DNA of 64,000 nt from the NCBI RefSeq assembly GCF_000801955.1, contig NZ_JSZO01000001.1:124001-188000 (forward strand), in the 5' to 3' direction. Shown here one piece after another: positions 27,864 through 44,922 of the stretch. The translations under genes and the position numbers were made by a program. The notes beneath the pieces were generated by a model. It did no database searches. It was not told where the DNA came from and saw only the letters and a list, made by a program, of their open reading frames with translations. This DNA is from Ralstonia sp. A12. Lineage in GTDB: Bacteria; Pseudomonadota; Gammaproteobacteria; Burkholderiales; Burkholderiaceae. Each line of letters opens with the position of its first letter. Within the stretch, counting starts at the first letter, position 1.

Positions 27864-27918
27864 CGGATTATTTACTTCTGGTGATGTTCAGAATGGACTG
27901 AATGTTTGCGCTGCATCA

Positions 27919-27960
27919 TTGCTCAACCCTAGGGATAACCCTATACTCGGGAAAACCCTA
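27919..27960 (+). promoter_or_regulatory. Promoter with tandem GGG-N4-CCC dyads for a small gene
   Basis: A -35-like TTGCTC (27919-27924) and -10-like TATACT (27942-27947) are 17 bp apart. One dyad, GGG-ATAA-CCC (27932-27941), fills the spacer, and a second, GGG-AAAA-CCC (27949-27958), covers the likely start point. AACCCTA occurs three times (27925, 27937 and 27954). This placement is what a repressor would use. A related arrangement precedes the small gene at 44746. Confidence 0.6.
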
Positions 27961-27984: not shown

Positions 27985-28152
27985 ATGATCCAGCAAGCCT
28001 ATTACACCCCGAAGTTCGCCGGCGAAGCCCAAGTTCAAGCCGCTCGTCGTCCGTCGCTGCTGCGTGCAGTCATCAACTACTTCCGCAAGGGTTGGGATGA
28101 CAACCTGGCGTACGCTGAAGTGGTTGGCAAGTCGGGCTCGTACCTCGGCTAA
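27985..28152 (+). CDS. Small orphan protein, 55 residues
   Basis: The frame reads MIQQAYYTPKFAGEAQVQAA and ends KSGSYLG. Residues about 22-36 (RPSLLRAVINYFRKGW) form a basic amphipathic helix. Coding bias fits the region, GAGAGAGAA lies upstream of the ATG, a strong promoter precedes it and a perfect terminator follows, so I regard it as real although it is short. I do not recognise a family. The matching promoter design at 44655-44735 suggests it belongs to a common regulon of small proteins. Confidence 0.75.
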   Translation: MIQQAYYTPKFAGEAQVQAARRPSLLRAVINYFRKGWDDNLAYAEVVGKSGSYLG

Positions 28153-44585: not shown

Positions 44586-44654
44586 GGCGTGGAAGTGGCG
44601 TCAGCACCATATTGGTGCGGCGCAACGTGAGCGTGGCGGCCGAGCAACGCGTCG

Positions 44655-44735
44655 TGGTGCATACGTAAGCCTACGTATGGTGCATTGCATCATCTGGTGT
44701 ATTATGAGGGTATTCCCTAACCGGGATTTCCCTAA
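44655..44735 (+). promoter_or_regulatory. Promoter with tandem GGG-N4-CCC dyads and upstream repeats
   Basis: GGG-TATT-CCC (44708-44717) and GGG-ATTT-CCC (44723-44732) are 15 bp apart. GCATCAT (44687-44693) lies 21 bp before the first, as at 27913. Further upstream are three TGGTG(C/T)AT repeats (44655, 44678 and 44695) and a perfect CATACGTA-AGCC-TACGTATG dyad (44660-44679). A -10-like TATTAT starts at 44700. At least two regulators could bind here. Confidence 0.55.
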
Positions 44736-44745
44736 GAGGCCAATC

Positions 44746-44922
44746 ATGCAAAACACGAACGACCTGAAGCTGACCGACCAACTCGAACGCGAACTGATCG
44801 AGCGCGAGATGTCCGAAGGTATCTACTACTATCGCCGCCCGTCGGGCCACGCGTTCTCCTTCGCCCAGTTCTTCTCGGCAATCGCGAACCTGTTCAGCAC
44901 GCAGCGCACCGCCAAGGCCTAA
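44746..44922 (+). CDS. Small orphan protein, 58 residues
   Basis: The frame begins MQNTNDLKLTDQLERELIER, an acidic helix, and ends with an aromatic amphipathic helix (AFSFAQFFSAIANLFS). AAGAGG precedes the ATG at good distance. Codon use fits the region. I recognise no family and there is no clear homology to the small protein at 27985-28152, despite the shared promoter plan. It could act at the membrane surface. Confidence 0.75.
   Translation: MQNTNDLKLTDQLERELIEREMSEGIYYYRRPSGHAFSFAQFFSAIANLFSTQRTAKA

Follow-up and report, generated by a model that had tools for sequence, protein, structure and literature searches.

The GGGWWWWCCC dyads described here are, with a probability of roughly 0.6, the operators of one DNA-binding protein, probably a repressor, that would control a small and dispersed set of genes across the Burkholderiaceae, some of them probably with a PhaR input and a role in carbon storage. 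This reading is built from sequence comparison, and within the window (the whole 64-kb stretch of DNA that was analysed) the dyad-binding factor would control two unrelated orphan microproteins of 55 and 58 residues. The initial annotation had reported pairs of such dyads in front of two unrelated small genes, and both pairs were recovered at the positions it gave. Its gene sizes held in one case (58 aa at 44746-44922) and not in the other, as the gene at 27985-28152 encodes 55 residues and not 58. The features of the two promoters, with the basis for each in brackets, are as follows.

27906..27918, minus strand: PhaR/PhbF-type box TGATGCAGCGCAA, exact match (pattern match)
27932..27941, plus strand: first dyad of the 55-aa gene, GGGATAACCC, just upstream of the -10 hexamer (pattern match)
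27942..27947, plus strand: putative -10 hexamer TATACT, flanked by the two dyads (best-scoring hexamer)
27949..27958, plus strand: second dyad, GGGAAAACCC, 1 bp past the -10 hexamer (pattern match)
27985..28152, plus strand: 55-aa orphan gene, with stop (open reading frame, congener homologues)
44604..44618, plus strand: inverted repeat GCACC-N5-GGTGC (sequence, congener conservation)
44660..44679, plus strand: inverted repeat CATACGTA-N4-TACGTATG (sequence, congener conservation)
44678..44690, plus strand: PhaR/PhbF-type box TGGTGCATTGCAT, one mismatch to TGNTGCNNNGCAA (pattern match)
44700..44705, plus strand: putative -10 hexamer TATTAT (best-scoring hexamer)
44708..44717, plus strand: first GGGWWWWCCC dyad of the 58-aa gene, GGGTATTCCC, 2 bp past the -10 hexamer (pattern match)
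44723..44732, plus strand: second GGGWWWWCCC dyad, GGGATTTCCC (pattern match)
44746..44922, plus strand: 58-aa orphan gene, with stop (open reading frame, congener homologues, third-position variation)

Paired dyads and orphan genes in Ralstonia

A dyad was defined as GGGWWWWCCC and a double dyad as GGGWWWWCCC-N3..14-GGGWWWWCCC. What the genomes show directly is where the sites lie, how well they are conserved and which genes follow them. The window holds five single-pattern matches against 0.39 expected from shuffles, the fifth of which (52481) is a single dyad within a 343-aa open reading frame and was set aside. Across the 6.1 Mb of the own genome, the double dyad occurs at two places only, both inside the window, and the reversed control returned no match there or anywhere in the 37 genomes searched. 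The double dyad is present in 18 of these 37 genomes, namely the own genome, all 15 congeners and two members of other genera of the family (G017 and G019), and is missing from the other 19. It occupies two places in the own genome and five congeners, three places in ten congeners, two in G017 and one in G019, and the second G017 occurrence (L034) has no recognisable small gene behind it. Counts over the 16 Ralstonia genomes, together with the shuffles, thus put the window dyads far above chance and at the same time reveal that two other elements of the initial annotation, the literal GCATCAT and the TGGTG(C/T)AT triplicate, are not conserved.

The 58-aa gene lies between a gene of the CreA family and a gene for a 2Fe-2S protein. 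Homologues were found in 16/16 Ralstonia genomes, with weak N-terminal ones in G019 (where the protein has 64 residues) and G017, and all 18 carry the double dyad. The 55-aa gene is likewise present in 16/16 Ralstonia genomes, with both dyads in each, and in 0/45 others. Both open reading frames look coding, since variation is concentrated at third codon positions: variable sites at positions 1, 2 and 3 number 8, 5 and 23 for the 58-aa gene (16 sequences) and 15, 9 and 31 for the 55-aa gene (13 of the 16 sequences, all of one length). The 58-aa protein matches no Pfam, NCBIfam or PHROG family above cut-off and has no PDB relative by sequence, and an NCBIfam scan allowing E values up to 1 returned no family for either protein, phasins (TIGR01841) included. 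A poor structure model of the 58-aa protein (mean pLDDT 64) places helices at residues 4-24 and 39-56. Of the proteins tested for amphipathic helices, only the 55-aa one has a stretch clearly beyond that of its shuffles (P = 0.014, compared with 0.06-0.53 for the others).

The third double dyad of the ten congeners precedes another orphan gene, of 48 residues, which is found in 15/16 Ralstonia genomes, including the own genome, where it lies on a contig other than that of the window. Among these 15 copies the dyad is double in 10 and single in 5, the own genome being one of the latter. A protein search identified two 48-aa homologues in other genera (L082 and L083), both with dyads; three more (L186, L207 and L221) were assigned by eye after being found through their dyads and are not independent tests. 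The 48-aa protein has no match in the plasmid collection. The check for homologues without dyads showed at least one dyad kept at every Ralstonia homologue of the three genes (16/16, 16/16 and 15/15) and, outside Ralstonia, at the two 58-aa and two 48-aa homologues obtained by protein search.

Upstream of the 58-aa gene, the roughly 95 bp that end at the start codon appear by eye better kept than the DNA beyond, as judged from an alignment of 16 loci, four of which were in the wrong orientation. A dyad-symmetric repeat that had been proposed for this region could be located as the perfect inverted repeat CATACGTA-N4-TACGTATG at 44660-44679 and is kept across the genus, being exact in 13/16 Ralstonia genomes and within one mismatch in 16/16; none was seen at the other dyad genes read. 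The triplicate exists in the window, with copies at 44655, 44678 and 44695, but three or more copies of TGGTGYAT were found in just 3/16 Ralstonia genomes. About 140 bp ahead of the gene, the repeat GCACC-N5-GGTGC (44604-44618), present in 14/16 congeners, has what we take to be an NtrC-like shape, and inspection by eye found no sigma-54 promoter of the form GG-N10-GC near it.

Targets elsewhere in the family

The strict double dyad GGGWWWWCCCTANNNGGGWWWWCCC was found in 71 stretches in a scan of genomes from 84,980 species (GTDB), from which the window's own genome may have been left out. Small proteins of 48-64 aa follow 57 of the 71, comprising 32 Burkholderia proteins of DUF3563 type, 6 DUF3563-like proteins of Thiomonas type, 12 members of the 58-aa family and 7 copies of the 48-aa gene. 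The remaining targets are 2 fructose-bisphosphate aldolases, 1 esterase of PHB-depolymerase type and 11 others that we take as chance or different systems. The DUF3563 assignment rests on a Pfam run with one protein per type (one Burkholderia, one Thiomonas), both of which match the family. DUF3563 was matched in 12 of 61 relatives' genomes and in 0/16 Ralstonia.

Several individual loci from these searches are described here in their own right. The class II fructose-bisphosphate aldolase genes behind double dyads come from two metagenome genomes (L094:877-1911, minus strand, and L156:2046-3080), and in both the dyad directly follows a TATTAT box. The esterase gene, also from a metagenome genome (L102:478-2166), encodes an extracellular protein of PHB-depolymerase type with a fibronectin domain and lies about 140 bp behind its double dyad. 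Tandem overlapping dyads occur in a betaproteobacterial metagenome genome (L149:354-393). Elsewhere in the order, in families other than this one, genes of DUF3563 type (L162, L163 and L168, at about 1370-1500) lack a GGG dyad and have a PhaR-like TGC-N3-GCA element upstream of the match.

A search for the single pattern GGGWWWWCCCTA in nine genomes from the family's other genera returned 95 rows, compared with 10 for its reversed control. These rows represent 73 distinct sites, 12 of them already known, and 60 of the other 61 were read (G028:C67 was omitted). By eye, 16 of the 60 fall into recurring families and 44 into none that was recognised, some of which are probably chance. The 16 are made up of a small-protein family of 51-55 aa (4 sites), the 48-aa gene (3), a thioesterase (4) and an acetyltransferase (5). 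The 51-55-aa family (L180, L181, L187 and L217) spans four genera with dyads 25-30 bp apart, and the one member tested has no Pfam match. The 4HBT thioesterase stands behind single dyads in four genera (L193, L212, L215 and L228; Pfam run on L193) and the GNAT acetyltransferase in five (L188, L191, L205, L211 and L236; Pfam run on L188); neither was seen among the sequences read at dyad sites of the own genome.

Taken together, these findings support the suggestion made from the window alone that small proteins form a regulon under one factor. Behind every double dyad found in Ralstonia stands a small orphan gene, with three unrelated genes represented, and the strict form recurs at the DUF3563-type proteins of Burkholderia and Thiomonas in a nearly fixed place relative to the -10 hexamer. 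The description as a regulon of small proteins needs qualifying outside Ralstonia, where the targets are not small proteins only: thioesterase and acetyltransferase genes recur, and a dyad lies within 200 bp upstream of 12 of the 23 DUF3563 matches, leaving 11 without. DUF3563 (PF12086) resembles the Ralstonia proteins in size and, at those 12 matches, in carrying these dyads, likewise positioned with respect to the -10 box, whereas the 55-, 58- and 48-aa proteins themselves have no family match over cut-off.

A PhaR/PhbF-type box beside the dyads

The GCATCAT element had been placed ahead of the first dyad at both window genes and was found there (27913 and 44687), but among the Ralstonia promoters it occurs in only 11/16 at the 58-aa gene and 3/16 at the 55-aa gene. 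It is better read as part of an overlapping box of PhaR type, a reading that draws on the consensus TG[N]TGC[N]3GCAA, which the available text of one study reports for PhbF, the Herbaspirillum relative of PhaR, from a motif search and DNase footprints (PMC3206438). At the 48-aa gene the box TGNTGCNNNGCAA is exact in 15/15 Ralstonia copies although N3 varies. At the 58-aa gene it is exact in 4/16, within one mismatch in a further 11/16 and at two mismatches in 1/16, and at the 55-aa gene it is not conserved (exact in 2/16, with one mismatch in 7, two in 4 and three in 3). The box lies 24-33 bp before the first dyad at the 48-aa and 58-aa genes. As the window holds only 5 exact matches to the box and 42 with at most one mismatch, a chance match at a fixed place is unlikely.

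Outside Ralstonia, 3/5 genera have an exact box at the 48-aa gene. The 58-aa homologues of G017 and G019 carry it with a single mismatch, and in the 51-55-aa family it has one mismatch in 2/4 promoters and two in the other 2/4. Two Thiomonas-type promoters that were tested have it exact but further away, 48 and 50 bp ahead of the dyad. It is absent (at least two mismatches) from 12/12 Burkholderiaceae DUF3563, 4/4 thioesterase and 5/5 acetyltransferase promoters and from 2/6 promoters of the 48-aa family. PhaR itself is over the family cut-off in 12/12 genomes tested, and of the 12 phaR upstream regions examined, three from Ralstonia (the own genome included) and two from other genera carry a box with one mismatch. 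In G019, the phaR match is preceded at a distance of about 200 bp by a single GGGTTTTCCC (L263, ~1294-1303). We regard a PhaR input as probable at the 58-aa and 48-aa genes but not at every dyad gene.

There is a sizeable minority chance that a factor other than PhaR, recognising TGC-N3-GCA, binds the PhaR-type boxes and that the genes are unrelated to polymer storage. In favour of this alternative, many dyad promoters lack the box, as do 7/12 phaR upstream regions when up to one mismatch is allowed. Against it stand the exact fit to the footprinted consensus in all 15 copies of the 48-aa promoter, in which N3 is free, and the phasin genes of the same genome, one of which has an exact box upstream (the other has none within one mismatch). 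Compared by sequence with the PhaR/PhbF regulon of Herbaspirillum and Cupriavidus, as far as the accessible accounts describe it, the present system is alike in the footprinted box, which the 48-aa gene matches exactly and the 58-aa gene nearly so, and which one own phasin gene has as well. It is unlike in its targets: here they are orphans, 48-64 aa long, that carry an additional type of operator, where the targets published are genes of PHB metabolism.

Promoter layout, the dyad-binding protein and what the regulon may mean

The position of the dyads was examined in 37 representative promoters that had been picked for having dyads, with the best TATAAT-like hexamer near the dyads taken as the -10 element. 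A dyad starts 1-3 bp (mostly 2 bp) after the -10 hexamer in 24/37 promoters and abuts it upstream, as CCC-TATAAT, in 9 more, and 4 promoters fit neither arrangement. With transcription expected to begin some 7 bp past the -10 hexamer, a dyad that follows the hexamer by 1-3 bp should cover the start point, as an operator would. Two layouts are found on unrelated genes, with dyads either flanking the -10 box (the 55-aa gene and several DUF3563 genes) or both downstream of it (the 58-aa gene, the 48-aa gene and other DUF3563 genes). Across 55 dyads the consensus is (T)AGGGWWWWCCCTA, with A before GGG in 37, T after CCC in 50 and then A in 38. Given that the expected start is occupied by one dyad, and that the other is placed either just ahead of the -10 hexamer or further downstream from it, the binding protein is most likely a repressor: judging from this position, the factor bound at the start site would block RNA polymerase.

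An activator or an architectural protein as the binder is unlikely on the same evidence. Features known from activated promoters are present at the 58-aa gene, where a stretch well upstream is conserved and inspection by eye showed no good -35 box; repressors, however, usually sit at or beside the start site, which is where the dyads lie in the 24 and 9 of 37 promoters just described, and several of these promoters have a full TATAAT.

A GntR regulator of UTRA type (L225:973-1798) was considered as a candidate for the dyad-binding protein and rejected, because its own dyads are not kept in its closest relatives. A large inverted repeat of two dyads, 28 bp apart, lies upstream of this gene, and no GGGWWWWCCC was found in the 220 bp upstream of its relatives in two Ralstonia (58% identity), G032 (55%) and G017 (37%). 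A more distant paralogue (L249, in G035) has a single dyad.

It is improbable that the binder is a metal- or persulfide-responsive repressor of the CsoR/RcnR family. In the sections available of the study describing it (PMC3902906), the type 2 operator of CsoR consists of a pair of short G/C tracts, separated by 2-4 bases and flanked by AT-rich DNA, and may be tandem. The dyads fit this shape loosely, having two G/C tracts, four bases between, AT-rich flanks and a tandem arrangement, and a CsoR-family gene of Lachnospiraceae (L142:3685-4111), followed by a copper-type ATPase gene, was found behind the same double dyad with TATA centres. What speaks against such a repressor is that the TAC/GTA repeat required by the Streptomyces protein is absent from the dyads, whose consensus reads TAGGG...CCCTA, and that the recurring targets are not metal genes.

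Two further alternatives are very improbable. Were the dyads RNA elements in the 5' leader, the second one would indeed fall in the leader at the 58-aa gene and at many DUF3563 genes, but at some genes, the 55-aa one included, a dyad is found ahead of the -10 hexamer, and the expected start falls within the first downstream dyad, which would leave its GGG untranscribed. Nor do the window promoters look like local duplicates of each other that imply no regulon, for although they lie within 17 kb of each other and have the dyads in common, they differ in dyad spacing (17 against 15 bp) and in layout around the -10 box. Their proteins show no relationship, and such dyads are also found outside the window, at the 48-aa gene on a different contig and, in other genera, at further gene families.

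Returning to repression through the dyads, the mechanism proposed here combines two inputs. As described in the accessible text of two studies (PMC9049629, PMC3783465), PhaR is a repressor that leaves its promoters on binding nascent polymer. The 58-aa and 48-aa genes would then need two conditions for expression, the presence of polymer (with PhaR gone) and the release of the dyad-binding repressor. Their proteins would be made while storage polymer is made and a second signal is satisfied, and would serve carbon-storage physiology. We infer the binding, the repression, PhaR as the binder of the box and the function of the proteins, and for the storage role the indications are the PhaR-type box, the PHB-depolymerase-type gene of L102 and, weakly, the thioesterase and acetyltransferase targets. 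Counting against that role are the amphipathicity results, positive for the 55-aa protein alone, and the poor structure model of the 58-aa protein.

It is conceivable, if rather doubtful, that this repressor regulon extends across the Burkholderiaceae and consists largely of unrelated orphan microproteins (the 55-, 58- and 48-aa proteins, DUF3563 and the 51-55-aa family) that are new components of carbon storage, possibly coating or marking polyhydroxybutyrate granules and missed on ordinary gels by reason of their size. The granule proteome in the available part of one report was resolved on 10% gels and lists nothing under about 19 kDa (PMC3783465), so that granule proteins as small as these could have been missed.

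No account of the dyad motif was found in the openly licensed literature searched, and DUF3563 is named in none of it. The available text of a start-site map of Burkholderia cenocepacia (PMC4603805) does not mention such a motif, the strings "palindrom" and "ggg" being absent from its main text. We rate the operator and its regulon as new and as working by ordinary means, and as notable for the many unrelated orphan microproteins among the targets.

Few parts of bacterial genomes are less well understood than orphan genes of fewer than 70 codons. An operator common to unrelated orphans brings them into one group, so that each gains a testable regulator and a condition, and it offers a DNA bait for the regulator itself. 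If the link to PhaR is true, small proteins would be added to the storage system that is used in bioplastic production.
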